Notes under the pieces: model-generated
What the model saw: only the letters and a program-made list of their open reading frames with translations
Database searches by the model: none
What the model was told of the DNA's origin: nothing
From: Clostridiales bacterium GWD2_32_19
GTDB lineage: Bacteria; Bacillota; Clostridia; Lachnospirales; UBA12420
NCBI GenBank assembly: GCA_001795385.1
Contig: MGOU01000006.1
Location: 1-59,665 of the forward strand
Direction of reading: 5' to 3'
DNA length: 59,665 nt
Made by a program: the position numbers and the translations under genes
In this document: piece by piece, positions 18,500 through 46,101 of the stretch
How positions within the stretch are numbered: the first letter of the stretch is position 1
How the letters are laid out: the number at the start of each line of letters is the position of its first letter

Positions 18500-18528
18500 T
18501 TGATTTTTTTAAAATATTATACTATAAT
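18500..18528 (+). promoter_or_regulatory. sigma-A promoter opening the secretion-like block
   Basis: TTGATT and TATAAT are separated by exactly 17 bases. The predicted start is about 125 bases before the first pilin-like gene. The leader contains a small hairpin (gaacagt/actgttc near 18592-18609). Confidence 0.75.
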
Positions 18529-18659
18529 CATGATTAGATTGCAATATAGTATAATATAATTATAAGAAGTAGAGAAAATAGCACCATAAAATGAACAGTT
18601 TTTACTGTTCGCACTGTGCATTTTTTGCATTTGTGAATTAATTAAGGGGAGGAATACAT

Positions 18660-19010
18660 ATGTTGAAAAAATTAATGATAAGCGTTAATGTTCTTTTTTT
18701 ACTTGCTAGCACAACACTTTTAGCGAGGGCAGAATCAGTAATAGTTACTACAGAATCTTCGGAAGAAGTAGGGGATTTTATATCAAATCTTATAAGTAAA
18801 ATAATGCCACTTGCATATCAAATAGGAGCATTTTTAATTTTTCTTGCAGTTGTGGTAGCGGGTTTTGACATGATAAAGCATAGAAAAGATGCGGATAAAA
18901 GAAAAGAGGTACTTCATTCGTTTTTATGGCTTGCTGTAGGAGCTTTTATAATAGGAAGTGCAGTAGTAATAGCGGGTATGATATGGAATGGAACAGTTAA
19001 AATGTCATAA
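18660..19010 (+). CDS. VirB2/TrbC-like small pilin protein 1
   Basis: The 116-residue protein has an N-terminal signal peptide (about 1-24, ending in ARA), a short extracellular linker, and two transmembrane helices (about 54-72 and 87-109) joined by a basic cytoplasmic loop (KHRKDADKRKE). This is the topology of VirB2/TrbC-type pilins of type IV secretion systems. GGGGAGG precedes the ATG. It is paralogous to the next gene, sharing the pattern GxFLIFxAV...GF and SxLWLAVGAFxIG. Function as a pilus or channel subunit is inferred from topology and neighbours, not from a strong family match. Confidence 0.72.
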   Translation: MLKKLMISVNVLFLLASTTLLARAESVIVTTESSEEVGDFISNLISKIMPLAYQIGAFLIFLAVVVAGFDMIKHRKDADKRKEVLHSFLWLAVGAFIIGSAVVIAGMIWNGTVKMS

Positions 19011-19043
19011 TATAATAAATAACAACATTTTAAATGCAAAATA

Positions 19044-19072
19044 TTGACAAATGTCAAATAAAGTATTATAAT
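19044..19072 (+). promoter_or_regulatory. consensus sigma-A promoter of pilin 2
   Basis: TTGACA and TATAAT match the consensus perfectly with a 17-base spacer. Just downstream, the leader carries an 8-bp inverted repeat (tgtaatat at 19091-19098 with its complement at 19104-19111) that could stabilise the mRNA or serve as an operator. Confidence 0.88.
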
Positions 19073-19135
19073 ATACATATGAAACAAAAATGTAATATAG
19101 TCAATATTACATTTAACTTGAAAGGGGATGAAAAC

Positions 19136-19534
19136 ATGAAAAAAATATTAGCAAAATTATCTTTAATGTCTTTAGGGATAATGGGATTATCATCTAGTGT
19201 AGTTTTGGCAGATGGTCCTGTAACAGGAGTAGAATTAAGTACTACTCTCTCGACTATTATAACTACTATAAACACTTTTGCAACACCAATAGGATCGTTT
19301 TTAATATTTATAGCTGTTTTAATGGTAGGATTTAGTATTCTTAAAAATAAAGACAAAGCAGATGAAAGATCAAAATCAATGGAGTCTTTATTATGGCTGG
19401 CAGTGGGAGCTTTTGTTATAGGTGCGGCTTTAACAATTGCTGGAGTATTAATAAAACCAGCTGATGATAGTACTTTAAAGAATACAACAACACCATATAA
19501 CACGGAAATACAAGCAGGAAACTTTATAATATAA
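19136..19534 (+). CDS. VirB2/TrbC-like small pilin protein 2
   Basis: The 132-residue protein has a signal peptide (about 1-25, ending VLA), two transmembrane helices (about 52-69 and 84-106) with a charged loop, and a polar C-terminal tail of about 25 residues. I chose the ATG at 19136 because AAAGGGGATG lies just upstream; the frame opens 34 codons earlier inside the promoter region. It has its own perfect promoter and its own strong terminator, which suggests it is made in larger amounts than the rest of the system, as expected for a major subunit. It is a paralogue of the gene at 18660. Confidence 0.74.
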   Translation: MKKILAKLSLMSLGIMGLSSSVVLADGPVTGVELSTTLSTIITTINTFATPIGSFLIFIAVLMVGFSILKNKDKADERSKSMESLLWLAVGAFVIGAALTIAGVLIKPADDSTLKNTTTPYNTEIQAGNFII

Positions 19535-19558
19535 TTTCCAGAAATATTAATTAATTTT

Positions 19559-19588
19559 AAGATTAGGTATTAAGCCTAATCTTTTTTT
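19559..19588 (+). terminator. rho-independent terminator after pilin 2
   Basis: A 9-bp perfect stem (aagattagg and complement) with a 7-base loop is followed by a run of T residues to 19588. It is one of the clearest terminators in the window. Confidence 0.9.
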
Positions 19589-19607
19589 GTTATTTTGTGT
19601 TTTTGTA

Positions 19608-19636
19608 TTGAATTTGTAAGAGAAATGTTGTAAAAT
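19608..19636 (+). promoter_or_regulatory. sigma-A promoter before the VirB3-like gene
   Basis: TTGAAT and TAAAAT with a 17-base spacer, about 110 bases before the VirB3-like start codon. It restarts transcription after the pilin 2 terminator. Confidence 0.65.
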
Positions 19637-19755
19637 ATAAATAAGCATTGTTGCTATATTTGCTATAAAAAAGGTGAACATGGATATAAGGAAAAAATTT
19701 TACATAGTAGTATTGTGAATTGTGTATATCATGTAATAAATGGGGGTGTGTTTAT

Positions 19756-20073
19756 ATGAGAATGTTTGGAGTACCTTTTGATATAAATGAAGAGGATAAG
19801 CTTATAGGTGGGTATTTGTCTCTTAGACAAGCAGGGTGGCTTGCAATTCCACTGACAGTATTAGTAGTAGAATTTGTGGCAGATATGAGTTATATTACAC
19901 ATGTTAATGCGTTGGCAATGATTATAAAGATTTTAGTTCTTTTTGTAACTATTGTTATTGCAGGATTTATGGCGTTTGGGTCAATGGACTCTATGAATGC
20001 TGATCAGTATGTTTTTAAGATGATAAAGTTTAAATATAGGAAAAAGGTGATAATGTATAACGATAAGGTCTAG
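19756..20073 (+). CDS. PrgI/VirB3-like inner-membrane protein
   Basis: The 105-residue protein opens with VPFDINEEDKLIGGYLSLRQAGWL, the pattern of the PrgI family found beside VirB4 in Gram-positive type IV secretion systems. Two transmembrane helices follow (about 28-48 and 52-75), then a basic tail. In related systems this VirB3-like subunit anchors the VirB4 ATPase at the membrane. The start at 19756 has TGGGGGTG upstream; the frame's first ATG, 12 codons earlier, has no ribosome site. It directly precedes the VirB4-type genes, as in pCF10-like and Tn-type systems. Confidence 0.8.
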   Translation: MRMFGVPFDINEEDKLIGGYLSLRQAGWLAIPLTVLVVEFVADMSYITHVNALAMIIKILVLFVTIVIAGFMAFGSMDSMNADQYVFKMIKFKYRKKVIMYNDKV

Positions 20074-20116
20074 TATATAATTTAATATAAATTATAACTT
20101 TCAAGGGGGCATTTCT

Positions 20117-20899: not shown

Positions 20900-21054
20900 A
20901 TAAACATGGAGAATATAGATATAAACAGGTATATAATGGACAAAGGATTATAAAAACATATAGTGCATTAGGAAGAGAGTAAACATGCATCAGTGAAGTA
21001 GTAACTATACTATGTAACTCGAAGCACGCAACTATTTAAACGGGGGTGTAACTT

Positions 21055-22887
21055 ATGAATATTGATAAGAAGGTAACCAAAACACAAGAAAATGCACAAG
21101 AGGATGAAAGAAAGTTTATGGCTAGACATGATTTAATAGATTTGTTTTTGCCAGATGTATTTGAGGAAAATAAAGACCATATATACGCAGGACCAGGTAA
21201 ATATGCTAGACTTTATGTTATAGATAAATATCCAAGAAAGATGCATATTGGTATTTTGAACGATTTGTTTGAAATAGACAATATAAGTATAAGCTCATAT
21301 GTAGAAAACATACCTGACGCGCAAGTTGTTAGGAAATTAACAAGTAAATTGGTTTCTTATCAGTCTAATATGTATATGCAACAAAAAAGAGGACACATGA
21401 TAGATTATGGTACACAACAAGCAGTAGCGGACCTAGATAATATGAGAGAATTAGTTCAAACAAATAGAGACAGGATGAGCTATGTTCAAATTATGATTAC
21501 AGTGTGGGGGAAAACACTAGAGGAGTTAGATCAGAAAGGTGAATGGTTGGAAGACATTTGTGCTAGAAAAGGTATGAGGCCAAGAGTATGCGTGTATGAC
21601 CAAGCAAAAGCTTACATAACATCACTTCCATATAGAAATATAAAATACATGGGCAACATGAGAAATGCGGTAATAGGTGTAGTTGCGAGTTTAGTACCTA
21701 TTGGTAATACAGAAATGTCTCATCCGGGTGGGATCTATTTGGGTAACAACCTTTATACGAATTCACCTGTATTTTTTGATAGTTTTATAGGGCCACCACT
21801 ACTAACCAACCCGATGATGGCTATATTTGGTATGGCTGGAGCAGGAAAGTCTGTTACCATGAAAACAATTGCATCTCGTGCTGCAGCAACAGGAGAATGG
21901 ATTATCATACTTGACCCAGAAAATGAATATGAAAAGCTTATAAAGTTCCTGGGCGGACAGTATTTTGAGATAAAATCAGGGCAGTTTTCAGGAATAAATC
22001 CATTTGAGTTAGAGGTAGAAGAAGATGAAAAAGGACAAGTAGTAGATATATATAGTAAGTTGTCAGAAATAAGAGAGCTACTCTCTATGTTCTGTCAAAA
22101 GTTTAGAGAACAACCTCTACGCGGACAAGAAATATCAGCTGTGGAAGAAGCAATAAATATTTTATATGCAAATAAGGGTATAACAAGAGATCCAGAATCT
22201 TTATATAGAGAAGTAACAGAAGAAGTTGATGGTAAATTTTTTACAGGAAGAATAAAGAAAGATATGCCAACTCTTTCTGATTTAAGAGAAGAGCTTTCTA
22301 AAAATGAGGCAACTTTTGGGTTATCAGAAATGATGAAAATATTGGTTGATGGAAGGTCATTATCAATGTTTGACGGACAAACCAAAATAGATTTAAGTAA
22401 AAGATTAATAGGTATAAACCTAAAACATTTGACAGACGAGTTTATGAAATTCTTTGCGGTTGTAAATGTAATGTCATGGATTTGGGGTAAATTTTCTAAC
22501 TGGAAGTTTAAAGGAATACATAAACGTGTTATAGTAGATGAAGGTTGGTTGTTTGCAAAATATCCTCAGGCAGCTGTATTCCTAGAATCAATAGCAAGAC
22601 GTGGTCGTAAATATAGAATATCTCTTCTTATAGCATCTCAACAAATGAATGAATTTTTATCATCAGAATCAGGGAAAGCAATTATAAACCAATGTGCGAC
22701 GAAATTTATAATGAAACAAGACCCAAATGTAGCAAGAGAAGTTGCGGCGTATTTGTCATTATCTGAGTCGTGCAAAGAAATGATATCCTCATTTAGTCAA
22801 GGAGAAGGTCTGCTCATGACAGATACGGATTTAGTAGTAATGAGAATGGTTCCATTCGATTTCGAATGGGATTATGTAATAACATAA
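21055..22887 (+). CDS. VirB4-type secretion ATPase
   Basis: The 610-residue motor has the Walker A GMAGAGKS at residues 259-266 and the Walker B VIVDEGW at 492-498, followed by the VirB4-typical RRGRKYRISLLIASQQ and the conserved DPENEYEKLIKFLGGQ near 285. VirB4 proteins power pilus assembly and substrate transfer at the cytoplasmic face of the channel. The ribosome site ACGGGGGTG precedes the ATG. Length is somewhat short for VirB4 because part of the N-terminal region appears to be supplied by the preceding gene. No VirD4/TcpA coupling ATPase is present nearby. Confidence 0.9.
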   Translation: MNIDKKVTKTQENAQEDERKFMARHDLIDLFLPDVFEENKDHIYAGPGKYARLYVIDKYPRKMHIGILNDLFEIDNISISSYVENIPDAQVVRKLTSKLVSYQSNMYMQQKRGHMIDYGTQQAVADLDNMRELVQTNRDRMSYVQIMITVWGKTLEELDQKGEWLEDICARKGMRPRVCVYDQAKAYITSLPYRNIKYMGNMRNAVIGVVASLVPIGNTEMSHPGGIYLGNNLYTNSPVFFDSFIGPPLLTNPMMAIFGMAGAGKSVTMKTIASRAAATGEWIIILDPENEYEKLIKFLGGQYFEIKSGQFSGINPFELEVEEDEKGQVVDIYSKLSEIRELLSMFCQKFREQPLRGQEISAVEEAINILYANKGITRDPESLYREVTEEVDGKFFTGRIKKDMPTLSDLREELSKNEATFGLSEMMKILVDGRSLSMFDGQTKIDLSKRLIGINLKHLTDEFMKFFAVVNVMSWIWGKFSNWKFKGIHKRVIVDEGWLFAKYPQAAVFLESIARRGRKYRISLLIASQQMNEFLSSESGKAIINQCATKFIMKQDPNVAREVAAYLSLSESCKEMISSFSQGEGLLMTDTDLVVMRMVPFDFEWDYVIT

Positions 22888-22901
22888 TATTTTGCCAAAT
22901 C

Positions 22902-22930
22902 TTGACAAATTAGCAAAAACAATGTATAAT
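22902..22930 (+). promoter_or_regulatory. consensus sigma-A promoter of the VirB6-like gene
   Basis: TTGACA and TATAAT with a 17-base spacer, 48 bases before the start codon. Flanking ttttgc/gcaaaa sequences form an inverted repeat over the -35 element, a possible operator. Confidence 0.85.
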
Positions 22931-22977
22931 AATGTAAAAAGAATGTAATTTAATTTGAAAGATGGTGGTGAAAAGAT

Positions 22978-25900
22978 ATGGATAAAATAAAGAGAATAGG
23001 GTCGGTCGTAATACTTGTGTTATTAATGATTAATGTGTTAGGATTTAGTCGCGTATATGCGGGTGATGTTGAACTGGCAATTACTACATTTTACACTGTC
23101 TATATGGATTTAGATATGCTTTCAGGGACTCCTGAGGATGATAGCCCAGGAGAATATGAACTTAATTATGGGTACTATGCTATCCCTGAAGATAGTAATA
23201 GCTCAAGAACTTTTTTTTATAGTAATACTGATGCATCAACGTATCTAGTTAGTGATTCCTTGTATGATACTTTGGTAAAGACATCACTAGATTCAGGTAC
23301 AGAATTTTCTGAATATACAAGTAAAAACAGAGCAGTTACTAAAAAAATTATTAAGCTACTCTATCGTAGTGATTTATATGGAGGTACTGTCTATGATGAT
23401 GATGATCTATCGGATGATGAAGTAATGGATAGTGAAGCTGCTATCGATGCATTAGTGGATGATACGGCAGGGACTTCAATCTTAGATGAAAATACACTTT
23501 TGCATGATCTTTATTATAAGGATCCTCCTGTAATAGGATATGCAAATTATTTCAGAGGCGGTATAAGTAATGAATTCCTAGTAGATTTAGATATAGCGGA
23601 CAGAGCGTTTTGCGCCTCTGCGGGTAATACTGCACATTTAACTCCTGTGGGGTTATTTAAAGAAGAGACATTAGCAACTTTGGAAGAACAAGAAGAAATA
23701 ACAGAAGAAGCAGTAATAACTGGAAATACAATAAATCCATGGGGACTAGATAGAAGTGGTACCTATAAAGCTAATATGGATAAGCTAGTAGGATGGATAA
23801 AATCGATGGCTTTTCCAGCTTTGGGATTTTTGGTTTTTATTGCGGTTATTATTACAGGTTTTAAAGCAATAGGAAATGCTACAAGGGAAAATCCAAAAGA
23901 GCGTATAGAGTTAATGCAAAGCTTTAAAAATATTCTTATTGGTGTTATTGTAGTGACTTTTGCGGTGGGAATAGTTACAATTGCTTTTAATGTAATGCAG
24001 GGTTCCTTGCAAGAAATTTCAAGCACAGAATATACACCTGAACCGCTAGAGGATGCTAAACCAGACGGTATTATTTCAGCTATTGCGTATTTGTTTAATG
24101 GTCTTGTTACATTTATAGTGGATGGAGTAAGAGGATTTTTACATTTGATTCCTGGATATAATTCTATAGAACAATTAATAACACTTAGAGATATAGGCGG
24201 CACGTTAGATGTTACTGATAATGTTTATATATCCCCATTTAATAGCGATGGCAATGTGAAAATGGGACTATATACTGCGGCGTATGTTTTAATTGCTTCT
24301 ATATGTCTTCCTATAATGGTTATAGCTGTTTTAAAATCTGGATTTATGTATATAGTTTATGCAAATAACTATGGGCAAGTTTCTCAGATAAAGGACGACA
24401 TAAGAAGATTTTTTATAGCAGTTTTATTTGTTGTTATAGGACCATATATTTTTCAAGCGATATTAATGTTTTTTAATATGATGACAATGTTGATACCTTT
24501 TAAGTATAGTTATAGTATAACAGAAAATTTTGACACAGGAAATGCCATAGGAAATTTAATTGGTGGACTCTGGCTTATGTATATAGAAGTAACCATAACA
24601 TTTATATTCATAGTAAGAGAGGTTACTCTTACTGTTATGTACATTGTAACTCCTTTAGTAGCCTTTGCATGGGCATTAACTTCTAAGCATAAGCTTTTAC
24701 AAATATGGTGGGGTGAGGTAGTAACAAATGCATCTACCCAGTTTATATATGCTATAGTTTTCTTCATTGCTACTATAGGACTCGGAAATATTACATCAAA
24801 TAGTCACTGGTTAATATATTTAGTATGGATGACAATGGTTATAAAACTTGCTAAAGCTCTTAAAGAAGGATTACAAGGTGGATACCTCGCATCACTTTCA
24901 GGTATTAATGAAGAGGGTATTGCAGAGGGACTTACAAAGTCTACAATGTCAAAGGTAGAAGGTGGAGCAAAGGGACTTTCCAATGCTGCACTTGACAATG
25001 CAAATACTAAATTTAATTTAGACGGGAAGAATTTTGCGTTAAATTCACTTTCAAATATTAGAGGTGCAAATAGAGTCTTACATGGTGCAAAGGCTAAAGA
25101 TGCTGGTTTTTCACCGGGTTTAAGAGGGGAGTATGCTAAAACTCAGAAAGAAAGTTATAAGAATACACTACAGGAAAATGCAAACCTTGTAACGGTATCA
25201 GAAGCAACAGGACGAAGCGTAGAGGAAGAAAGTGTAAGGGCACTTAATATGGCAGGGGTAAAAGATGTAAAAGTATTTGAGGATACAGCTAAAAGAGCAG
25301 GAAGATTTAAAGAGATAGATCCAAGAACAGGAACAAGAGCTGCATTTAACTCTGGAGCTAATAGCGTAACTCAAAGAAAACTAAATAATATAATAGGATT
25401 AATGTCACCAGGACCAACTGGTGGAGGTGGTGGATCAAGCGGAGGCGGGACGAATACAACTTCACCTTTAATAGTGCCACCATCAACAACGAGAAACCCA
25501 AGAACTGGCAACCCAACTATTAGTCAGTCTATAGCAAGTGGAATTACACCTCAGCAGTTTGGAGTAGGAACTCAAGTTCATGATGAGCTCAATGAAGGGT
25601 TACAATCTACGAATATTGGCGGAACTAGAAGGGCAGAGATAGAAAAACTAGATGGAGAAGGTAATGTAGCCTCTAGAAATACTAAGTTGGAAGAAATGGC
25701 AAATACAGATTATAATAAATATGCAACAGAAATAAGAGAAGCGCAAAATCAAAAAGAGGCATATATTAAAGAAATGAAGGGTCACGGAGCAGAAGTTGAT
25801 GGTCAAAATTTTAAAGAAAGTGCAAGAATGAAGGATTATGATAGTCAGATAAACAGTAAGAAAGCAGATTTAAATAATACAGATGCTGTTAAGGCAGGAC

Positions 25901-26103
25901 AAGCACTTAAGGAAAAAAAGGTACAATTTATGAAGGAACTAGATGGAGAAAAGAGAAACAAACTATCTAAAGAAATTGAAAAGATTCGTAAGAATAATCC
26001 AGACATAGTAATGGATACAGAAAAACTAATAAATTCAAAGATAACAGAAACAATTTTAAATAAGCAAAGAGAACTAAATAGTAGAGGCTCGTATAACATT
26101 TAA
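22978..26103 (+). CDS. large polytopic VirB6/TrbL-like channel protein with an embedded pilin-like segment
   Basis: The 1041-residue protein has a signal peptide (about 1-28, ending VYA), an extracellular acidic domain of about 240 residues, and a set of transmembrane helices. The first pair (277-343) closely resembles the small pilins, with GFLVFIAVIITGF followed by a basic loop and SF...IGVIVV. Further helices span about 355-640, including the VirB6-like VTPLVAFAWALTSKHKLLQIWWGEVV. The C-terminal 400 residues are soluble, with a Gly/Ser-rich linker near 810-835 and charged coiled coil to the end. VirB6/TrbL proteins form the membrane channel of type IV secretion systems. GGTGGTG precedes the ATG. 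Confidence 0.7.
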   Translation: MDKIKRIGSVVILVLLMINVLGFSRVYAGDVELAITTFYTVYMDLDMLSGTPEDDSPGEYELNYGYYAIPEDSNSSRTFFYSNTDASTYLVSDSLYDTLVKTSLDSGTEFSEYTSKNRAVTKKIIKLLYRSDLYGGTVYDDDDLSDDEVMDSEAAIDALVDDTAGTSILDENTLLHDLYYKDPPVIGYANYFRGGISNEFLVDLDIADRAFCASAGNTAHLTPVGLFKEETLATLEEQEEITEEAVITGNTINPWGLDRSGTYKANMDKLVGWIKSMAFPALGFLVFIAVIITGFKAIGNATRENPKERIELMQSFKNILIGVIVVTFAVGIVTIAFNVMQGSLQEISSTEYTPEPLEDAKPDGIISAIAYLFNGLVTFIVDGVRGFLHLIPGYNSIEQLITLRDIGGTLDVTDNVYISPFNSDGNVKMGLYTAAYVLIASICLPIMVIAVLKSGFMYIVYANNYGQVSQIKDDIRRFFIAVLFVVIGPYIFQAILMFFNMMTMLIPFKYSYSITENFDTGNAIGNLIGGLWLMYIEVTITFIFIVREVTLTVMYIVTPLVAFAWALTSKHKLLQIWWGEVVTNASTQFIYAIVFFIATIGLGNITSNSHWLIYLVWMTMVIKLAKALKEGLQGGYLASLSGINEEGIAEGLTKSTMSKVEGGAKGLSNAALDNANTKFNLDGKNFALNSLSNIRGANRVLHGAKAKDAGFSPGLRGEYAKTQKESYKNTLQENANLVTVSEATGRSVEEESVRALNMAGVKDVKVFEDTAKRAGRFKEIDPRTGTRAAFNSGANSVTQRKLNNIIGLMSPGPTGGGGGSSGGGTNTTSPLIVPPSTTRNPRTGNPTISQSIASGITPQQFGVGTQVHDELNEGLQSTNIGGTRRAEIEKLDGEGNVASRNTKLEEMANTDYNKYATEIREAQNQKEAYIKEMKGHGAEVDGQNFKESARMKDYDSQINSKKADLNNTDAVKAGQALKEKKVQFMKELDGEKRNKLSKEIEKIRKNNPDIVMDTEKLINSKITETILNKQRELNSRGSYNI

Positions 26104-26167: not shown

Positions 26168-28510
26168 ATGTCAAGTGGAATCGACAGTGGGGAAGAAGAA
26201 AGAAAAAAGAAAGGAAACGGTTCCCTTTTAAAGAGAGCAAGTGGAGTTTTTAATAAAGGAAAAAAATTTGGTAAGGACAAAATAAAAGGATTAGTTAGGA
26301 AACAACTAATTAAATGGTTATTAGCAGCAGGATGGCCAGCTGTAGCAGTGTTGGTAATTTTTGTATTTCTTGTACTTGTTATTCAAGTGCCCAGTGCTAG
26401 TGCTGATATTGCAACTAAAAACATAGAGAAATTATATATGGATTTTAGTGAGGAACCTTACCTTATTGAGGAAATTGACATAGTACAAAAAGCAGAGAAT
26501 AAGATGACCCCTAAGACCATGGAGAAATATGCAGATTTGTTTATAATGTATAGAGGTGCTATGGAAGGTGATACAGATGATGTTGCAACAAAGAAGATAA
26601 AAGATAATTTGACAGATGCATTACGTGAACAAGGTATTTTAGCGAATACAATAGATGAAATACCTTTCTTTCTTAAATTTGAAAGAGAATCGTATGCGTG
26701 GTCCTATCCAAAATGGGAGCCGATAACAAATGCAACAGAGAAAAAAATTTTTGATATGTATAGTAACATATACAGGAAAGAAAATGTAGCTGGAAATGGC
26801 TATATAATTAGGGATATGAATGGAAATGTTAAAAAGAAGATATATACTTTTCATGATCTTAGCTCGTCAGATATTTACGACGAATACAAGAAAACTTTTA
26901 GCAAAGAAGATATAGTGTTAAAGAAGAATAATTTGTTTAAAGGAACACATGTAGCTGTAACAGATCCCAGCGTCAAAAAGCAAATATTAAAGAAACAATT
27001 TGACATGTTGTATAATAATGTTATGACTAAATATGAAAAGTATTTTAAGTTAATGCAAAAATGCGATGAGGCATATTTTGGTACATATAACGATAAATTT
27101 ATAAGTACAGATGAAAATGAAAACATGGTATATTTAGCAAATGCTGATGGAGATCCTCTAGAGGTATATATGAGACGTTCTCTTATTAATAGATTTTTAA
27201 TCTTTAATGAAGTAGTGAGATTAGTTTATGAAATGACGGGATATCCGTTAAATACTGCTACTACAGACAATGACCTAAAATATAATGACGCAGATGTTCA
27301 AGATATGATTAAGAAAGGATCTTATAAAAAGTCAATATCAAGAAGCTATACAGATACTCTTTTAGATCTTCAAGAAATAGAGTATAAAAATAGGTTAAGT
27401 TGGCATTATATTGGATCAGTTTTGGCTGAAAAGGCTAAAAAAGAAGATGAGATAAAGCTTCTAGCTGGGGGAAAATCAGGAATACCAGAGACAGTAAATT
27501 TAAAGAAAGAATTGGACGAGTATAATGTTTTAAATGATGTACTTTCTACATCAACACCATATTTTAAATATGTATATCCAAGTAATATGAGCGCATTAGT
27601 AAAAGAAAATGATACAAAAGTAGGAATAATGGCAAAATATGGAGACGAGTATGAAGATTTTGATATAAAAGATGGACCTTGTGCTCCTATTATTCCTCGA
27701 GAGATGTTTAATGGAGAATACAAGACTGACAATACAGATTTTCCAGCCGGGTATATAGAAATAAACGAAGAAGAGATAAAAGATAAATTAAGCGATATGA
27801 ATGATCTTGATAGTTGGTTAAGTAATATAATAAAAACAATGAAAGCTTTTGAAAAGTCACCGCTTGTATATATGAAAGAAGAATTTATTCCAATGGCTCT
27901 GGTAGCATATAACGCGAGGAATCACGAGATAAGTGAAGCCTTTAATGTTTTAGATTATTATGTAACACATAAATTACATATGGATAATTCAAGCGAAGAA
28001 CTTTATGCATACGATTCTTGGTCGGATGGATATCAAATACTACGAGATAAGGAAGTTAAATACCATAATATAATTGTTAGTGATGAAGAATTAAAGTCAA
28101 AAGGCGATGTAGTAAATATAACAGAGACTATTAGATTAGAGTATAAATGTTATGAAGAAATGAATTCTCAACCGGATGCTGTGGTTGCTAATAATATTCT
28201 TAGGGTTAATAGACAAGTAAGTAGAACGCTGCCAAGCCTTAAGGCCGATAAGACAAGTAATATTTTTTATTCAAAAGTAAACACATATTCTGAAAGTGTT
28301 ATTAATCCAATGCCAGTAGTGGAGGAAGATTTAGATAAAACAAAGTCATATGTAGAGCATATAGATAAACATTGGGAGGCATATAATTACGAGGGAGAAC
28401 CTCCTGAACTGGAACCTGCAGGTAGTGGAGATGCAATTGATGCTGAGCTGATATATCATAATATATACAATAAACCATGGACTGTGATGAACGGATCAAA
28501 ATCGAAATGA
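26168..28510 (+). CDS. single-pass membrane protein with a large extracellular domain, unknown family
   Basis: I do not recognise the family. The 780-residue protein has a basic cytoplasmic N-terminus (about 1-48), one transmembrane helix (about 50-74), and about 700 mostly hydrophilic residues that should lie outside the cell. The outer part is rich in Lys, Asp, Glu and Tyr and has no obvious repeats or catalytic motif. Only a few cysteines are present. Its place between the VirB6-like channel and the VirB1-like hydrolase suggests a cell-wall-spanning scaffold of the same machine. A distant relation to the membrane-anchored proteins next to CD1108-type hydrolases in Clostridia mobile elements is possible but unproven. 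Confidence 0.6.
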   Translation: MSSGIDSGEEERKKKGNGSLLKRASGVFNKGKKFGKDKIKGLVRKQLIKWLLAAGWPAVAVLVIFVFLVLVIQVPSASADIATKNIEKLYMDFSEEPYLIEEIDIVQKAENKMTPKTMEKYADLFIMYRGAMEGDTDDVATKKIKDNLTDALREQGILANTIDEIPFFLKFERESYAWSYPKWEPITNATEKKIFDMYSNIYRKENVAGNGYIIRDMNGNVKKKIYTFHDLSSSDIYDEYKKTFSKEDIVLKKNNLFKGTHVAVTDPSVKKQILKKQFDMLYNNVMTKYEKYFKLMQKCDEAYFGTYNDKFISTDENENMVYLANADGDPLEVYMRRSLINRFLIFNEVVRLVYEMTGYPLNTATTDNDLKYNDADVQDMIKKGSYKKSISRSYTDTLLDLQEIEYKNRLSWHYIGSVLAEKAKKEDEIKLLAGGKSGIPETVNLKKELDEYNVLNDVLSTSTPYFKYVYPSNMSALVKENDTKVGIMAKYGDEYEDFDIKDGPCAPIIPREMFNGEYKTDNTDFPAGYIEINEEEIKDKLSDMNDLDSWLSNIIKTMKAFEKSPLVYMKEEFIPMALVAYNARNHEISEAFNVLDYYVTHKLHMDNSSEELYAYDSWSDGYQILRDKEVKYHNIIVSDEELKSKGDVVNITETIRLEYKCYEEMNSQPDAVVANNILRVNRQVSRTLPSLKADKTSNIFYSKVNTYSESVINPMPVVEEDLDKTKSYVEHIDKHWEAYNYEGEPPELEPAGSGDAIDAELIYHNIYNKPWTVMNGSKSK

Positions 28511-38402: not shown

Positions 38403-39410
38403 ATGAATAGTATTGTAGAAAAACTTAGGCCAGTTATTATGAATATTATATCATTACTTACACCTCAAAATATAGTTTGGCTAACATTGGTTATAACGGG
38501 TTTAGTCTTAATATTCAATTACATGTATGATCACTATAAGTATAGAAAAAATGTAATGAGATATTTGATAAAAAAAGATAAAAAATCCATGATGCATGTA
38601 CTCACAATAAGACTATCCAAGATTCAGATAGTGTACAAGATTATTAGAAAGCTTGCGATAAAAATAGGGATGTTTACACAATATTCTTATGAGAAAAACT
38701 TAGAATATGCCACAAGGGCTTTGATTTCATCAATATTTGGTTCTGTTTTTATAATAATGGTACTAGTTCCAGGAAACAGGTTTTGGTATATATCTATGTT
38801 TTACTTTTTTATAGCAGTAATAGTTATTACGGTAATATTTTATATGTTTTTTGCTATGGCAAGAATGAACTTTATAAAAAAGTTGCCAGATACATTTAAA
38901 ATACTTAACAGTAGATACATAAGTAAGGGTAATATACTAAAAGCGATTCATGTTTCAATGGAAGATTTTGATAAAGTTATAAGAAAAGAAATGATAAAAA
39001 TATATAACGTATTAAAGAAAAATAATATGGAAGAAATAGATTATGTATTAGAAAGTATAGATGAAACATATAAAGATGAATTTTTAACAATTCTTTTAAG
39101 CCTTATAAAACAAGCGCATTATAAAGGCGGAAATGTAATGATAAAAGAGCAATTTGAAACACTTACTGAAGAAATACTCGAAGAAATAGAAAATAGAGCA
39201 GACCTCGCTTCAGCGAGTAAATCATATATATTTTTAGCTTTGTTTATACCGCCTTGTATACCATTAATTCAGAAATTTAATGCTGATTCTATTGGTGAAA
39301 AAGCAGGGGAGTTCTATCAATCAGCATTAGGTGAAAAGCTACCTATTATGATGATAGCTGCTATGCTAGCTTATATAGGGTTGCTACTATTTATGGAAAG
39401 ATCAGCCTAG
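38403..39410 (+). CDS. TadB-like membrane platform protein
   Basis: The 335-residue protein has four hydrophobic segments: about 18-40, two adjacent near 110-150, and one near 310-330. Between them is a cytoplasmic helical domain with the T2SSF-like order (LPDTFKILNSRYISKGNILKAI... EEILEEIENRADLA). TadB and TadC form the inner-membrane platform on which the CpaF ATPase acts. It overlaps functionally with the TadA-like gene upstream, only 3 bases away. Assignment is by topology, partial pattern and context. Confidence 0.75.
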   Translation: MNSIVEKLRPVIMNIISLLTPQNIVWLTLVITGLVLIFNYMYDHYKYRKNVMRYLIKKDKKSMMHVLTIRLSKIQIVYKIIRKLAIKIGMFTQYSYEKNLEYATRALISSIFGSVFIIMVLVPGNRFWYISMFYFFIAVIVITVIFYMFFAMARMNFIKKLPDTFKILNSRYISKGNILKAIHVSMEDFDKVIRKEMIKIYNVLKKNNMEEIDYVLESIDETYKDEFLTILLSLIKQAHYKGGNVMIKEQFETLTEEILEEIENRADLASASKSYIFLALFIPPCIPLIQKFNADSIGEKAGEFYQSALGEKLPIMMIAAMLAYIGLLLFMERSA

Positions 39411-39416
39411 GAAGAC

Positions 39417-39531
39417 AAATGACAAAGAACAAAGAACTAAGTACAAAGATAAGAGTTGTTTAAGTTATATGTACTTTGTAGTTATATTTTGTATTTATAC
39501 TTTGTTATTTGTTCTTTGAACTTTGTACTTT
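39417..39531 (+). repeat. imperfect long inverted repeat between TadB- and TadC-like genes
   Basis: The left part (about 39417-39451, rich in acaaagaacaaag) and the right part (about 39499-39531, rich in ctttgttctttg) are largely complementary, so the mRNA could fold into a long imperfect hairpin. Similar caaag/ctttg-rich spacer occurs at 55740-55812. It might attenuate expression of the TadC-like gene. Confidence 0.45.
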
Positions 39532-39553
39532 GTATTTATTGGGGGTTTTATTT

Positions 39554-40714
39554 ATGGATATTTTGATTCAAGCAACTTACTCGTTATTAATTATAATAGG
39601 AGTATATTTAATAGGGTACTATATCATAAATCAGGAGTGGTTTATGAAGATGATTACAGATTTAGAGAAGAGTATCGTCTTTAATTATATGCGAGCAAAA
39701 AAGGCATATAAAGATTTTATGAGAAGATATATATATAAAGAAGATGGGCCATTATATGTGTGGTACAAGAAATTTCTTATGCACACAAAATTTTCAGTTG
39801 AAGGATTTATGAATATAAAAGTTGCTTTGTTTGTAATTACAATATTCATTAGTATGTCGGTAAAAACCACAGATATATTGGTATACACAGATGAATTATA
39901 TACGAAGTTTCAATATGAGCAAGATGAAATAATGAAAAACTATAAACCACTAGAGCCAGACGAGTTGGAAGTAACGGCGGAGTTTAAAAAAGTTATTTTA
40001 AAACAGTCATTACTTAGTATTAATAAAGAAAAATTCGAAAGTATGGACAAGAACGAAACACAAGATTATATAATAAAAATAGTAAAAGAACTAAAAAACC
40101 CTACTCCAATTTCTGACGAAACATTGTCAAATGAAGTTTACTATAAATTGAAAAAATTCTATGATATAAGAAAAATTGATTTTGGCTCGTACCTTATGAT
40201 AGCAGCGGCAGTGTTTTTCGTTCCAGAGATTTTCATATTATTATATAATTTTTTTATAAAAGTTGATGCAAGAAGAGAACTTGCTTTCATGAAACGGCTT
40301 ATAATAATGAATGGAAGTATAAAGCCAGTAGACTTTATGGAAGTGCTAAAATATTTGATTAAAAAATCCACATTTTACACAAAAATTCTAGAAGAAATAC
40401 AGGATAAAAATAAAAAGAATTACTTACCAAATACACAAATATATCTACCATATATAAGAAAATCAAAATCTATAACAGAAAAATTGTTTTTTGAGAAACT
40501 AGATGAAGCCAATAACTATGACTTTGATCAAGCGATACAGAATATAAAAAACGAATTTAATCTAGATAAAAGAACACAAGGAAGAAAGATAAAAAAGACA
40601 GTAGAAGTAATACATATATGGGGAATAGTTGGATTTATGGGACTTATAGTTTTTATAATAATGTATTTAATATTGCCATGGATGTCAGCATATAAGATGG
40701 ATACACTAATGTAA
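39554..40714 (+). CDS. TadC-like membrane platform protein
   Basis: The product of about 386 residues has an N-terminal transmembrane helix (about 4-24), a hydrophobic segment near 96-110, a central membrane segment near 217-238, a cytoplasmic helical domain, and a C-terminal helix (IWGIVGFMGLIVFIIMYLILPWM). This resembles the second platform subunit of Tad systems. I chose the ATG at 39554 with GGGGG 8 bases upstream; the frame opens 15 codons earlier within the inverted repeat. Sequence similarity to known TadC is low, so context carries much of the weight. Confidence 0.62.
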   Translation: MDILIQATYSLLIIIGVYLIGYYIINQEWFMKMITDLEKSIVFNYMRAKKAYKDFMRRYIYKEDGPLYVWYKKFLMHTKFSVEGFMNIKVALFVITIFISMSVKTTDILVYTDELYTKFQYEQDEIMKNYKPLEPDELEVTAEFKKVILKQSLLSINKEKFESMDKNETQDYIIKIVKELKNPTPISDETLSNEVYYKLKKFYDIRKIDFGSYLMIAAAVFFVPEIFILLYNFFIKVDARRELAFMKRLIIMNGSIKPVDFMEVLKYLIKKSTFYTKILEEIQDKNKKNYLPNTQIYLPYIRKSKSITEKLFFEKLDEANNYDFDQAIQNIKNEFNLDKRTQGRKIKKTVEVIHIWGIVGFMGLIVFIIMYLILPWMSAYKMDTLM

Positions 40715-40847: not shown

Positions 40848-40876
40848 TTGATTATTATCATAAAAAGTGATATAAT
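40848..40876 (+). promoter_or_regulatory. sigma-A promoter of the pilin-like cluster
   Basis: TTGATT and TATAAT with a 17-base spacer, about 35 bases before the first pilin-like gene. It gives the pilin-like genes transcription independent of the ATPase/platform operon. Confidence 0.78.
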
Positions 40877-40910
40877 TAGATGAATAAGCAATATACAAGG
40901 AAGTGGATAA

Positions 40911-41294
40911 ATGAATGAATTAGCGTTTGATATATTTGTTGGAATATTAATACTGAGCACAATAGTAGTTGTAGTTAATTTGTTTGACAGTAATTTAAAA
41001 ATTATAAACACATCAACAAATGATAAAAATACAGAAATATCTCAAATAAATGACGAACAAGTTACTAATGAACACAGTTTATATTATACGGGAGCAGATG
41101 TGCTTGCATATATAAATGATAGCAAAACATCGACAACTATATATATAAAATATTCAGAATCACTCATTTATAAAATAGATAATATTAATAGACAAATAGA
41201 CATACAAAATGCAAGTTCATATATAAAAGTTAATAACTACTTAACAGATAAATATTCATTTGATAGAGTAAGTTATACATTCTTAAAAACCTAG
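40911..41294 (+). CDS. small leaderless pilin-like protein A
   Basis: The 127-residue protein starts directly with a transmembrane helix (about 5-25) with no basic leader, then has a polar outer domain. It shares the motif GADVLAY (about residues 62-68) with the genes at 42269 (GADVISF) and 42715 (GSEVISF). This N-terminal helix plus globular domain layout is that of mature type IV pilins or pseudopilins. It has its own promoter and the ribosome site AAGGAAGTGG. Function as a minor pilin is inferred from layout and position in the Tad-like locus. Confidence 0.6.
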   Translation: MNELAFDIFVGILILSTIVVVVNLFDSNLKIINTSTNDKNTEISQINDEQVTNEHSLYYTGADVLAYINDSKTSTTIYIKYSESLIYKIDNINRQIDIQNASSYIKVNNYLTDKYSFDRVSYTFLKT

Positions 41295-41372
41295 GTAGAG
41301 ATATACTTACGAGTTTAGTGAGTATATTTATATAGATACATAGATTGTTTTATAAAAAGGAGGTGAAACATA

Positions 41373-41825
41373 ATGGAAAAGATTATAGCCGTAGTAATAA
41401 TGATAGTTATAGTTATTGCACTTATAGCGACTGTAGTAATGCCTCAAAGCCAACAGGTAGCAAACATGGGAGAAAATGCAAATACTCAAATGGACCAATT
41501 TCAAATGGGAATGCAAGATGGTAAAAGTTTAGGATCAGCAGTTATAGCTGACTTTAAAATGGGAGCTATTAATGACAATTTAATAGTTGTAATAGATGAC
41601 GATTCTGACGCAACAAAAGCTTTGTTGACAATATCTGCTACTGATGGTACAATAGCTGTAACAGCAGATACATCAAACATATCTTCTGATACAATAACAG
41701 GTGGAACAGTAACTCTACCAACAGCATTAACAATTGATAAAAATGCTGTTTACCAAAAATCAGAAAAAATCAATTCTAACAATGTAAGACATGTTTTATA
41801 TGTTAGGGTAAATACAGCTCAATAA
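41373..41825 (+). CDS. small leaderless pilin-like protein B, probable major subunit
   Basis: The 150-residue protein begins MEKIIAVVIMIVIVIA, a hydrophobic helix from residue 4 to about 22, followed by a Gln/Asn/Met-rich helix and a Thr/Asp/Ala-rich beta-like domain with little charge (residues 65-135). It keeps a degenerate GSAVIADF form of the family motif at residue 54. The ribosome site AAAGGAGGTGA is a full anti-Shine-Dalgarno match with a 6-base spacer, and two tandem terminators follow, so it is probably the most highly expressed product of the cluster. A pilus role is inferred. Confidence 0.65.
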   Translation: MEKIIAVVIMIVIVIALIATVVMPQSQQVANMGENANTQMDQFQMGMQDGKSLGSAVIADFKMGAINDNLIVVIDDDSDATKALLTISATDGTIAVTADTSNISSDTITGGTVTLPTALTIDKNAVYQKSEKINSNNVRHVLYVRVNTAQ

Positions 41826-41860
41826 TGTATTGAAATGTAGGATATTTGTCAATAGTGGAG

Positions 41861-41941
41861 GCGTATGAAATTTGAAAAAGTTTTATGCGCTTTTTATTAT
41901 AAAAGAAAATAACAATATATTAAAATATATTGTTATTTTTT
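41861..41941 (+). terminator. two tandem terminators after pilin-like gene B
   Basis: The first hairpin pairs 41861-41870 with 41881-41890 (10 bp, two wobble pairs) and is followed by TTTTTATT. The second pairs 41906-41920 with 41925-41939 (15 bp, perfect) and runs into a T-tract. Together they isolate the upstream pilin-like genes from those downstream. Confidence 0.88.
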
Positions 41942-42172
41942 ATCTAAAGGTATTTAAAAATTAAGGTAAAAGTGATATAATATATATAAGTAAATTATTT
42001 TAAAATGTTTAGTTTAACAAAATTACTGCTACTGCATCATGAGTAGAGTGTTATTCGTATATTGGATTTGATTTTAAGGTAAACTACATTTTCAACATCT
42101 ACGAGAACCCTATAAAAAGTTTGTAAAATACAAAACCAAGTATTAGGATGTCGCAATGATAGGGAGAGGGAA
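41942..42172. other. non-coding spacer with a decayed dispersed repeat
   Basis: This is part of a 443-base gap. The reverse complement of about 42097-42163 resembles 9361-9427 (both read cctNtcattgcNacatccta, then acttggttt). No coding frame with a ribosome site is seen. The 75-bp leader element follows directly. Confidence 0.6.
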
Positions 42173-42247
42173 GATAATACTGATAAGATATATTGAATAT
42201 AAAGGGATAGTGTAGTATTTAGTACTATAAATATTTTACACTACCTT
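42173..42247 (+). repeat. 75-bp leader element, copy 2 (upstream of pilin-like gene C)
   Basis: This is near-identical, in inverted orientation on the chromosome, to 3351-3425 upstream of ricT. It ends 21 bases before the start codon. From 42202 it can fold as an imperfect hairpin (aagggatagtgta pairing towards tacactacctt). Confidence 0.85.
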
Positions 42248-42268
42248 ATTTACAGAGGGGGAGATTTA

Positions 42269-42682
42269 ATGGAAAAGATAGTATATATCATTGTTTCAAG
42301 TGTGGCTATATTAGCAATTATGGGTGTCATATTAAATTTATTTAGAACAGATCATGCTGTTTTATATGCAGTAACAACTCAAACAGATGATATGAAAAAA
42401 GTTAATGCAGATGGGATGACTAATACAAATACATACATAGGAGCAGATGTAATATCTTTTTTAAGGTATAATAAAGATAGCGACATGACAATTGATGTAG
42501 ATTTCCTAGCAGGTGACATAAGGACTGTAGATACAATTGATAGAAATGAAGATATAAATATTATAGTCAAAAAAATTAGAGAGGGAAGTAAAATGGTTGG
42601 AATTAATGAAGTAGCTTATACTGATTTAAATTTTAGTGTTGAGGTTGCAACACAAAATCTGTATAAATTTAAAATTAATTAA
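42269..42682 (+). CDS. small leaderless pilin-like protein C
   Basis: The 137-residue protein starts with a transmembrane helix (about 4-24), then a polar domain containing YIGADVISFLRYNKD (about 56-70), shared with proteins A and D. There is no basic leader or prepilin cleavage motif. The ribosome site is GGGGGAG. The 75-bp duplicated leader lies directly upstream, so its control may differ from the rest of the locus. A minor pilin role is inferred. Confidence 0.6.
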   Translation: MEKIVYIIVSSVAILAIMGVILNLFRTDHAVLYAVTTQTDDMKKVNADGMTNTNTYIGADVISFLRYNKDSDMTIDVDFLAGDIRTVDTIDRNEDINIIVKKIREGSKMVGINEVAYTDLNFSVEVATQNLYKFKIN

Positions 42683-42714
42683 CAATTATATTTTTAAGTG
42701 GAGGAGGAGATTTT

Positions 42715-43149
42715 GTGGATAATATTCTGTATGATGTGGTTGTAGGAGTTATAATTTTAGGAGTAGTAGTAATTACATTTAATATGTCAAAGCAAAGCAC
42801 CGAAAATATGCAACAGTCTATAAATCAATCATCACAAATAGAAGAACAAAAACTTGAAGGTTTTGCATTTGAAGATTTAGACAACTATGAAATTCAAGAT
42901 AAAAAGTTTATGGGTAGTGAAGTTATATCTTTCATGAGATATTATTCAAATAGCAGTGTACTTAGTGAAATAAAGGTTATAACTAAATATCCAAGTACAT
43001 ACACAACATATAAAACAGATAATTTAGGAATAAAGATTGAAGAAATAGAAGAAAAGTTAAAAAGTGGAATGTATAATGAGATTTCTCTATACGAAGTAAA
43101 GTTTGACTTTAGGTATGATAAGAATCTCGGAATTGTATGGTTTGAATGA
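42715..43149 (+). CDS. small leaderless pilin-like protein D
   Basis: The 144-residue protein has an N-terminal helix (about 5-24), a Gln/Ser/Glu-rich linker, and KFMGSEVISFMRYYSN (about 65-80), the family motif. The start is GTG with GGAGGAGGAG upstream. It is the third clear paralogue in the cluster, 32 bases past the previous gene. Same inferred role as proteins A and C. Confidence 0.6.
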   Translation: MDNILYDVVVGVIILGVVVITFNMSKQSTENMQQSINQSSQIEEQKLEGFAFEDLDNYEIQDKKFMGSEVISFMRYYSNSSVLSEIKVITKYPSTYTTYKTDNLGIKIEEIEEKLKSGMYNEISLYEVKFDFRYDKNLGIVWFE

Positions 43150-43176
43150 AGGTAGTGAATAGAGGAGGTGTAGGGT

Positions 43177-44145: not shown

Positions 44146-44153
44146 GTGATGAA

Positions 44154-45206
44154 ATGGAACAGTCTTTAACGGCTATAGTAATTTCGATATTTATAATATT
44201 TTTATTTGTGCCTACTGTGTTTTTAAAGACAAATAACACAGATAGGGAAAACATGAAACAAAATTTACATTTTGCTACTATGGCAATTGCAGATTGTATA
44301 GAGATTGCAGATGATACAGGAGCAAGTATTAATTTTGATGAATTGTCAAAAGGTTACATGAGGTATATAGAGAATTTTGATGCTAGCAAGTCTAATATTG
44401 CAATAGATGAAAAAAAGTTGCTTTTGGAGTTCAATAATATATTATTTAAAAGTTGTCAAGATCCTGAATTGTATGCAAAAGCGCAAGCAAGTATAGTAGC
44501 AAAAATACTTATATACAATAACCAGTTTATAATGGCTGGAGGGAGTATTAGAGACGGAGATTATGACTATAAAGCTGAGTTAGACGAGTATACTGATCCG
44601 ACTAAAATAGGCAAATTTAACCCAGCACATTATTTCACTACTGATCCTGATCCCGTAACAGGCAAGGTTTATTATCTTAACACAAAAAATGATCAGTTGT
44701 ATGATGAAAATAAAAAGATAATTAATTATACGCATAATGTCGCATTGGGGGGAGGAATACCAACAACAGATCCTAATGTTATAAAATATGTTCTAAATGT
44801 TGACAATATTGGAACCAAGGATTATTATTTAAATATGTTAAACAATAAAATTTATAATAAGTTAATAAACCCGACGGATGATGATCAAGTAGGGTATCGT
44901 GATGTAATTAGTAATGAGTTATTGATTCCTCGTAGTATTAAATTTATAAGTCTTACAAAAGAAGCTAAAAACGATATTATAATAAAAAAGATAAATCAGG
45001 TTATATCAGACTATACAGGTGGAATGACTGTAAACTTTCCGAATCCAGAAAATGTTATTTCAAGGGTTAATATGAAACAGAAGGACTTGAATTTTTTTGA
45101 GGGAACTACATTTATGGTTATATACAAAGAGAATAATTATCTTGATGTAAGAAATGAAGTTATGGAATTTAAAAATTATGTTGTAGCAGGATATACATTG
45201 AAGTAG
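44154..45206 (+). CDS. larger pilin-like / TadF-position membrane protein 2
   Basis: The 350-residue protein opens MEQSLTAIVISIFIIFLF, a single N-terminal helix (about 6-24), then a long polar outer region with several Tyr/Asp/Asn-rich loops (DPDPVTGKVYYLNTKNDQLYDE). I see no catalytic motif or known domain. It begins 8 bases after the previous stop with TAGGTGATG, so the two genes are probably translationally coupled. As the last structural gene it could be an adhesin or tip protein; this is inference from size and position. Confidence 0.5.
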   Translation: MEQSLTAIVISIFIIFLFVPTVFLKTNNTDRENMKQNLHFATMAIADCIEIADDTGASINFDELSKGYMRYIENFDASKSNIAIDEKKLLLEFNNILFKSCQDPELYAKAQASIVAKILIYNNQFIMAGGSIRDGDYDYKAELDEYTDPTKIGKFNPAHYFTTDPDPVTGKVYYLNTKNDQLYDENKKIINYTHNVALGGGIPTTDPNVIKYVLNVDNIGTKDYYLNMLNNKIYNKLINPTDDDQVGYRDVISNELLIPRSIKFISLTKEAKNDIIIKKINQVISDYTGGMTVNFPNPENVISRVNMKQKDLNFFEGTTFMVIYKENNYLDVRNEVMEFKNYVVAGYTLK

Positions 45207-45211
45207 ATAAC

Positions 45212-45246
45212 AAATAACAGGTTTATAACCTGTTATTTGAATTTTA
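45212..45246 (+). terminator. terminator at the end of the pilin-like cluster
   Basis: A 12-bp perfect stem (aaataacaggtt and its complement) with a 3-base loop is followed by gaatttt. It starts 5 bases past the stop codon. Confidence 0.8.
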
Positions 45247-45261
45247 GGGGTGGTTAAATTT

Positions 45262-46086
45262 ATGAATCGGGCTATTCGGGCTACATTGTTTATAATATTT
45301 GTTATTGCTTTGTTTTATACCGCACCTCGCTTTTTAAACAACACATTATGGGCAAGTATACATGTTAGTATAGCTGTAGAGGATATAATTACAAAGATAC
45401 TGATTGTAGTTTTACCTTGTTTAGCATATATATATATGTATAAAAGGGATATAAATATACGAGAATGTTTAAAACCCAATAAAATATCAATAAAGCAAAT
45501 AGTTATACTTGTTTTAATGGGATTTTTCATTCAGCCGTTTGCTATGCTTATCAGTAGTATAACAAGCCTATTTTTTGAAAATAAAGTAATAGAGTATATG
45601 AATGCATTTGTGGGAATACCATTTTGGCTTATTCTAATCTCGATGGCGATAATGCCAGCAATTATGGAAGAAGTGATGATGAGAGGTATAGTTTTGTATG
45701 AATCGAGGGATTTAGGTATTAAAACAGCAGCGATACTTAATGGCTTTCTGTTTGGACTCTTGCATAGGAATTTTTCACAGTTTTTTTATGCAGTTGTGTT
45801 AGGTATGCTATTTGTGTATATAGTAAGGATAACTAATTCTCTATATAGCACAATCATTATACATTTTATAATAAACGGTACACAAGTCGTTTTAATGCAA
45901 ATGATGCCTGTACAGAATATAATAGAAAGTAATGTCATTGAAGATATAGCCTTACTCCAAAAGATAAGTGGAATAGGTTTTATAGCAATTATTTGTATGA
46001 TATGTCTACCCATTTTTGTTTATCTGATTAAAGTTCTAATAAAAGTTTCAAAACACAAAAAAAGATTAAACAGCGAAATTGTTTAA
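45262..46086 (+). CDS. CPBP-family intramembrane metalloprotease (CAAX/Abi type)
   Basis: The polytopic protein of about 274 residues has some seven hydrophobic segments. The CPBP motif 1 is visible as MEEVMMRGIV near residue 137, then FGLLHRNFSQFF and IIIHFIING, supplying the Glu-Glu, Arg and two His of the active site. Bacterial members cleave membrane proteins or confer immunity to peptides. The start at ATG 45262 follows AGGGGTGG; the frame opens at a GTG 4 codons earlier. It sits at the end of a Tad-like locus that lacks a prepilin peptidase, so a processing role is conceivable but untested. Confidence 0.78.
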   Translation: MNRAIRATLFIIFVIALFYTAPRFLNNTLWASIHVSIAVEDIITKILIVVLPCLAYIYMYKRDINIRECLKPNKISIKQIVILVLMGFFIQPFAMLISSITSLFFENKVIEYMNAFVGIPFWLILISMAIMPAIMEEVMMRGIVLYESRDLGIKTAAILNGFLFGLLHRNFSQFFYAVVLGMLFVYIVRITNSLYSTIIIHFIINGTQVVLMQMMPVQNIIESNVIEDIALLQKISGIGFIAIICMICLPIFVYLIKVLIKVSKHKKRLNSEIV

Positions 46087-46101
46087 TCTTTTTTTGTGTT
46101 T
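46051..46101. terminator. 22-bp bidirectional terminator
   Basis: The arms 46051-46072 and 46080-46101 are perfect complements with A-runs and T-runs on both sides, so it can stop the protease transcript (overlapping its last codons) and the convergent AbrB-type transcript. It marks the right end of the plus-strand block. Confidence 0.92.

Follow-up and report, generated by a model that had tools for sequence, protein, structure and literature searches.

A VirB-type gene set adjoining a Tad-type operon in the oriC region of a Clostridia genome

Introduction

Why should a Clostridia chromosome carry, beside its replication origin, the genes of a VirB-type secretion machine followed directly by those of a Tad-type pilus machine, and do the two sets of genes work as one? 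Gram-positive type IV secretion systems (T4SSs) are known almost solely as the DNA conjugation machines of mobile elements. The locus in question is a plus-strand block of 23 genes (positions 18660-46086) lying between rsmG and mnmG in the window, namely the stretch of 59,665 nucleotides of contig MGOU01000006.1 of Clostridiales bacterium GWD2_32_19 (GCA_001795385.1), which is the oriC region of this genome (henceforth G000; 1.97 Mb in 47 contigs). With moderate confidence, we read the block as a chromosomally domesticated VirB/D4-Tad cell-contact apparatus that is inherited vertically.

Co-inheritance of the two halves

The block was found in five genomes, G000 and the public metagenome-assembled genomes (MAGs) UBA12072, GWE2_32_10, Horse_feces368, and McD1.13. 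These carriers belong to the order families f1, f3, and f20 and are labelled G000, G001, G002, G004, and G021. Strong matches to VirB4, to the window-type TadA, and to the coupling protein VirD4 (E<=1e-75) occurred in an identical set of five among the 246 genomes surveyed in the order, in which all the remaining TadA matches were weaker than 1e-35. Two more genomes of the order, both of the Vallitalea group, possessed VirB4 without the other proteins, in one case on plasmid pVpro. When 391 genomes of the class were surveyed, VirB4 (at least 1e-60 in strength) was detected in 16 and TadA (1e-40 or better) in 10, and G000 was the only genome with both. Thus, the co-occurrence of the two halves in Clostridia, at which the preliminary description of the window had aimed, holds perfectly inside the five-genome clade, but outside it the halves are mostly apart, which is the outcome that this description had named as refuting its proposal. 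The phylogenetic profile speaks against chance pairing within the clade, although it amounts to no more than one effectively independent event.

The GyrA tree permits the five carriers to form a single clade, with f1 and f3 united at 100/98 and the join with f20 weak (51/70). The order of branching in the VirB4 tree, (G021,(G004,(G002,(window,G001)))), is that of the GyrA tree, and the nearest VirB4 outgroup comprised Tad-linked clostridial plasmids or contigs with a support of 100. Between G000 and G001, the ratio of nonsynonymous to synonymous substitution rates (dN/dS) was 0.043 for VirB4, 0.048 for TadA, and 0.074 for VirD4, much as for gyrA (0.058) and dnaA (0.057). The VirB6-like protein (0.375), the 780-aa protein (0.354), and the hydrolase of the VirB half together spanned 0.35-0.38. 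This pattern would fit a working machine of which the outward parts are diversifying. Judged from these sequences, the block is inherited vertically and both halves are under purifying selection.

The unlinked coupling protein VirD4

Each of the five carriers possesses one orthologous VirD4 away from the block, 55-94% identical to that of G000 and with intact Walker motifs. The G000 gene lies outside the window (G000:C15:42254-43873), and its product matched the CD1115 family at 1.5e-73, slightly under the cut-off of that family. This VirD4 belongs with the system encoded by the block. A second, diverged VirD4-like gene was seen at L020:8005-9981 (G021:C22:48005-49981), L081:9745-11700 (G000:C43), and L082:3902-5452 (G002:C25); it follows parB in G021 and stands beside SLH-domain genes in G000, and no relaxase genes were seen nearby.

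The coupling protein bears on the possibility that the block serves DNA import (competence), the Tad pilus capturing DNA and the VirB set taking it up. Such a role has precedents in ComB of H. pylori and the Tad-dependent transformation of Micrococcus and Liberibacter (see also PMC5696575), and the VirB4 ATPase weakly matched the import ATPase CedB (2.4e-11). A VirD4 that is co-inherited with the block points to export, however, and we consider import improbable. The HHH-motif protein encoded at 59139 is no evidence for import, because such genes are widespread.

Sources of the two halves

VirB4 of the block is closest to that of clostridial plasmids, with identities to VirB4 of Bacillota plasmids of 28-44%, and matches in a phage collection reached only about 23-27% identity. 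Seven of the eight Bacillota plasmids examined paired VirB with Tad, the Pontibacillus plasmid having VirB with no Tad nearby. The proposal that the Tad half was derived from plasmid Tad was unsupported: the clade TadA profile matched chromosomal Tad-like paralogs and retrieved no plasmid TadA at 1e-3. The closest relatives of the Tad half, the 322-aa protein included, are stand-alone chromosomal Tad operons of Clostridia in families f37, f39, f40, and f89. These differ from the block in that no VirB genes were found on the retrieved contigs (G260, G414, G573, G347, and G556) and in what heads the operon, in G260 a gene for a protein kinase, in others ORFs of similar size and look. The TadA tree has long branches, which leave room for doubt about the source of the Tad half. 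The simplest reading of these comparisons would be that, in this clade, a plasmid-type VirB set and a chromosomal Tad operon came together, in parallel to the pairing on plasmids.

The plasmid affinity of VirB4, along with plasmids that bear VirB beside Tad and in some cases VirD4 and a replication-relaxation protein, could also mean that the block is an integrated conjugative plasmid or an integrative and conjugative element, intact or decaying. We regard this as very unlikely. No relaxase of PF03432 or PF02486 was found in the five carrier genomes in searches with positive controls that did not extend to other mobilization (MOB) families, and PF13814 (Replic_Relax) gave no match in a genome search that had no positive control. 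Furthermore, VirD4 is unlinked, the block is vertically inherited under purifying selection, and no integrase was found within it. The only integrase seen is encoded past rnpA (56783-57523); in G001, the matching place is taken by an ORF of 247 aa.

One apparatus or two

Within one clade, the two halves and VirD4 have been inherited together, and purifying selection acts on both halves. A joint apparatus is therefore the best reading of the block, as the preliminary description had proposed for a surface or secretion machine. It probably serves the host permanently as a device for cell contact. In such a device, the Tad pilus would extend and retract, holding a neighbouring cell or a surface, and the SLT/NlpC hydrolase would open the cell wall. 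The VirB2-like pilins, PrgI, and the VirB6-like and VirB8-like proteins may form the conduit, into which VirD4 would load the substrate and through which VirB4 would drive export, perhaps with TadA in a VirB11-like role. The co-inheritance of VirD4 makes export likelier than import. A protein, or chromosomal DNA handled non-canonically, would be a likelier substrate than a plasmid because neither PF03432 nor PF02486 relaxases were found.

Alternatively, the block may hold two independent neighbouring machines, a Tad adhesion pilus and a relaxase-less T4SS of other purpose, kept together by ancient linkage near oriC. Either half occurs alone in other families, plasmid Tad is no close relative of the Tad half, and the internal promoters and gaps permit separate expression. 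Against this stand the perfect co-retention in the clade and the adjacency of the halves in two families (seen in G000, G002, and G021, and compatible with G001, where contigs break between them). In G004, moreover, two minor-pilin-like Tad genes were joined after rearrangement to the VirB pilins, upstream of a VirB pilin at the head of the VirB cluster. We therefore consider two separate machines rather unlikely.

Several points nevertheless weigh against a joint VirB/D4-Tad apparatus. Because window-type Tad operons stand by themselves in other families, as VirB sets do elsewhere, each half can work without its counterpart, and two machines without physical coupling would fit most of the data. 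What the data show is gene content, co-inheritance, selection, and tree congruence; joint assembly, the role of the pilus, and the substrate are deduced. Support for the GyrA clade with G021 in it is weak (51/70), every carrier is a MAG, and G004, a 69% complete genome, has its Tad core on broken contigs separate from VirB. The relaxase negative covers only some families, with no positive control in the case of PF13814.

Comparison with known systems

According to the preliminary description, no described system pairs the two machines at this locus. Indeed, no chromosomal VirB+Tad system of Clostridia was found in a full-text literature search of open-licence papers, but the pairing of VirB4 with Tad as such is known on plasmids of Bacillota and Cutibacterium (PMC5696575). 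The Bacillota plasmids (Vallitalea pVpro, Clostridioides pESS17301a, Geobacillus pGspE55-1, Paenibacillus pSC2, and others) resemble the block in having PrgI, a split or fused VirB4, a VirB6-like protein, and a cell-wall hydrolase, with CpaB/CpaE/TadA/TadB/TadC alongside and, in some of them, VirD4. They are unlike it in being plasmid-borne, in some cases with a replication-relaxation protein, and in a Tad ATPase of another lineage that the window TadA profile did not match. The linear plasmids of Cutibacterium acnes likewise have a tad locus beside VirB4- and TcpC-like conjugation genes, but are plasmid-borne, use an FtsK-like translocase, and belong to Actinobacteria (PMC5696575). IncI plasmids (R64) and the PAPI-1 island combine a type IV pilus with a VirB4/VirD4 transfer machine on one element (PMC12857230), although these elements are Gram-negative and mobile and the pilus is not Tad. 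The tip locus of pXO16 of B. thuringiensis is alike by description, as its relaxase and oriT are unidentified and it moves chromosomal DNA (PMC9673590), but it resides on a plasmid.

The closest functional parallel is the T4SS of Patescibacteria, which are monoderm. It is chromosomal, mostly relaxase-less, equipped with VirB2-like pilins, and often near dnaA, with the type IV coupling protein (T4CP) mostly unlinked, and the epibiotic growth of one species also depends on a type IV pilus (PMC12102498; PMC12857230). The block is similarly chromosomal, near dnaA/oriC, with several pilins and an unlinked T4CP and without a relaxase found. The likeness is one of features, across phyla: no Tad is mentioned in PMC12102498, and the nearest VirB4 among those tested is that of clostridial plasmids.

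A relaxase-less, vertically inherited VirB/D4 system near oriC together with a Tad pilus extends the situation in Patescibacteria to Bacillota. Whether a monoderm cell can use a T4SS and a Tad pilus as a single machine, and which substrate this would move, becomes a testable question. More tentatively, and with considerable doubt, we suggest that a chimeric VirB/D4-Tad machine may have become a permanent chromosomal organ of this Clostridia clade for the Tad-dependent delivery of protein or chromosomal DNA into neighbours, having arisen independently of both the plasmid VirB+Tad pairs and the Patescibacteria T4SS. If so, oriC-proximal domesticated T4SSs would be a recurrent evolutionary outcome in monoderm bacteria.

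Gene content of the two halves

Table 1. Features of the block in the window, with the evidence for each assignment.
Feature	Position	Strand	Evidence
VirB2-like pilin 1	18660..19010	+	PF18895 1.6e-9, PF04956 1.1e-6 (T4SS_pilin/TrbC)
VirB2-like pilin 2	19136..19534	+	PF18895 8e-9
PrgI family, VirB3-like	19720..20073	+	PF12666 5e-13
Split VirB4, N-terminal part, 260 aa	20117..20899	+	NF045975 positions 93-285/894
VirB4 ATPase domain, 610 aa, Walker A GMAGAGKS	21055..22887	+	PF19044 8e-22; CD1110/VirB4 families 1.7e-70
VirB6-like multi-spanning membrane protein, fast-evolving	22978..26103	+	Position and profile match to plasmid proteins following VirB4
Membrane-anchored large extracellular protein, 780 aa, fast-evolving	26168..28510	+	Conserved in clade
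VirB1-like hydrolase, SLT + NlpC/P60	28576..30093	+	PF01464 4e-6, PF00877 1.5e-4
VirB8/TcpC-like candidate, 175 aa	30105..30632	+	One transmembrane (TM) helix and predicted NTF2-like fold; tentative
CpaE/MinD-like ATPase with N-terminal extension	30795..32294	+	PF01656 1e-6 (CbiA/MinD)
MinD-like protein with five-residue repeats	32316..34637	+	CbiA/MinD domain; C-terminus resembles 30795 protein
CpaB/RcpC-like	34678..35721	+	PF16976 0.0045 (below cut-off); clade profile matches CpaB position of stand-alone Tad operons
CpaE/MinD-like	35783..36646	+	PF13614 0.0029
TadA/CpaF ATPase (T2SSE)	36711..38399	+	PF00437 2.6e-5; solved PDB CpaF 9.5e-12
TadB-like membrane protein (T2SSF)	38403..39410	+	PF00482 0.03 (weak), order, clade profiles
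TadC-like membrane protein	39509..40714	+	Gene order and clade profiles
Four small N-terminal-TM pilin-like genes (40911, 41373, 42269, 42715)	40911..43149	+	Positions kept in G001, G002, partly G004, G021
Two minor-pilin-like proteins, 322 + 350 aa	43177..45206	+	Conserved in clade and stand-alone Tad operons
CPBP/Rce1-like membrane protease	45250..46086	+	PF02517 3.6e-16; also in G001, G002
Bidirectional terminator-like inverted repeat, A- and T-rich arms	~46051-46101	.	Sequence

The VirB-type set was confirmed by Pfam and NCBIfam at the coordinates given for it in the preliminary description (Table 1). VirB4 is split over two genes with both parts present, as the 260-aa and 610-aa products cover consecutive stretches (93-285 and 274-875) of a single 894-aa model (NF045975); on the Clostridioides plasmid pESS17301a, both parts are fused in a single protein of 871 aa. 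The ORF of the second pilin opens at 19034, but a perfect 12/12 promoter at 19044-19072 suggests that the real start is the Met at 19136. For the 175-aa protein, the structural model (pLDDT 75) retrieved NTF2 folds in Foldseek, with 3ub1 among the weak matches (E 0.028). The structure 3ub1 is that of TcpC of pCW3, an NTF2-like plasmid conjugation protein, and this match at the level of the predicted fold tentatively suggests a VirB8/TcpC-like protein.

The Tad half was also confirmed where it had been placed and is a divergent Tad set, although the claim of a full set does not extend to the prepilin peptidase, which is lacking at the locus; a gene for an A24 prepilin peptidase lies elsewhere in the genome (G000:C8). 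TadB, TadC, and CpaB are weak by Pfam and were recognised via gene order and the clade profiles in the stand-alone Tad operons. No Flp Pfam match was found among the small pilin-like genes of the locus, and a small pilin starting with MEK is also present in the stand-alone Tad loci. For the minor-pilin-like protein of 322 aa, the AlphaFold model was of too low confidence (pLDDT 38.6) to be of use. The MinD-like gene at 32316 contains about 41-50 copies of a 15-bp repeat (about 41 over 33096-33713) coding for R-L-E-E-A/V units, and its product varies from 584 to 1149 aa among relatives. The genome has a further Tad-like locus on G000:C33 (L045 10771-15829; L046), which includes a kinase-like gene and encodes TadE-like proteins. 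Sequences of the clade aside, its TadA-, TadB-, and TadC-like proteins were the closest homologues that the searched loci offered for the window set.

The block at oriC and its position in relatives

Upstream of the block, the minus strand carries gyrA, gyrB, recF, dnaN, dnaA, parB, parA, and rsmG from left to right. On its 3' side, minus-strand abrB-like and M29 peptidase genes are followed by sleB-ypeB on the plus strand and by mnmG, mnmE, jag, and yidC on the minus strand. The plus-strand block was thus rightly described as splitting rsmG from mnmG; both flanks, rsmG-parA-parB-dnaA-dnaN and mnmG-mnmE-jag-yidC, are on the minus strand. The strong bidirectional terminator noted at the end of the block is real as well (Table 1). 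On the other hand, sleB-ypeB (47851-50335), which had been counted as members, are ordinary genes of sporulation, and the abrB-like and M29 peptidase genes separate them from the block. The notion of same-style promoters in both halves is weakly supported: promoter-like sites were no commoner than in shuffled sequences (80 vs 76.3 and 84 vs 98.5), and 12/12 consensus sites occurred only at 19044 and 22902, both in the VirB half, and at 59301. The presence of gaps as long as 443 bp hints at several separate transcripts across the block. Rfam and tRNA scans of the window gave no matches.

DnaA-box-like sites are clustered at 15501-15648, consensus parS sites lie at 7277 and 9557, and the cumulative GC skew turns at ~18 kb. 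The start of the block is therefore ~3 kb away from the likely origin, and the block is read in the direction of replication. Relative to dnaA, the segment from parB to rnpA (15949-56393) is inverted compared with G021 and the genomes of family f80, so that in G000 rsmG and mnmG are head-on to replication and the VirB/Tad block is co-directional.

The preliminary description regarded the block as fixed between rsmG and mnmG. This holds for G000 and G001 and probably for G021, but not for G002, where the Tad end is elsewhere, and it was not seen in G004. The block adjoins rsmG in G000, G001, and G021 and sleB-ypeB-mnmG in G000 and G001; mnmG of G021 is near the end of another contig, which is consistent with the same site but leaves it unproven. 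In G021, mnmE-mnmG have the usual orientation to dnaA, whereas G000 and G001 have the parB-to-rnpA segment inverted, with the block inside it, and the block and rsmG are divergent in all three. The Tad end of G002 borders abrB, followed by GGDEF, SLH, and a typA-like gene. The oriC-proximal location looks ancestral yet not fixed.

In G021, the block has on either side (L018:6423-13412 and L020:910-2928) genes for large proteins that look secreted, some with SLH domains, which may be its surface partners or its substrates. Finally, family f80, an unrelated Clostridia genus with genomes of 1.3-2 Mb, possesses a VirB set that lacks Tad and lies a short way downstream of parB at oriC, which is a second, independent oriC-proximal T4SS. 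This position was seen in all six genomes with readable flanks, namely G582 (L103/L104), G615 (L101/L102), G405 (L147), G360 (L149), G383:C32 (L150/L152), and G599 (L151), and the set of G582 comprises four pilin-like genes, PrgI, VirB4, a VirB6-like protein, and NlpC/M15.

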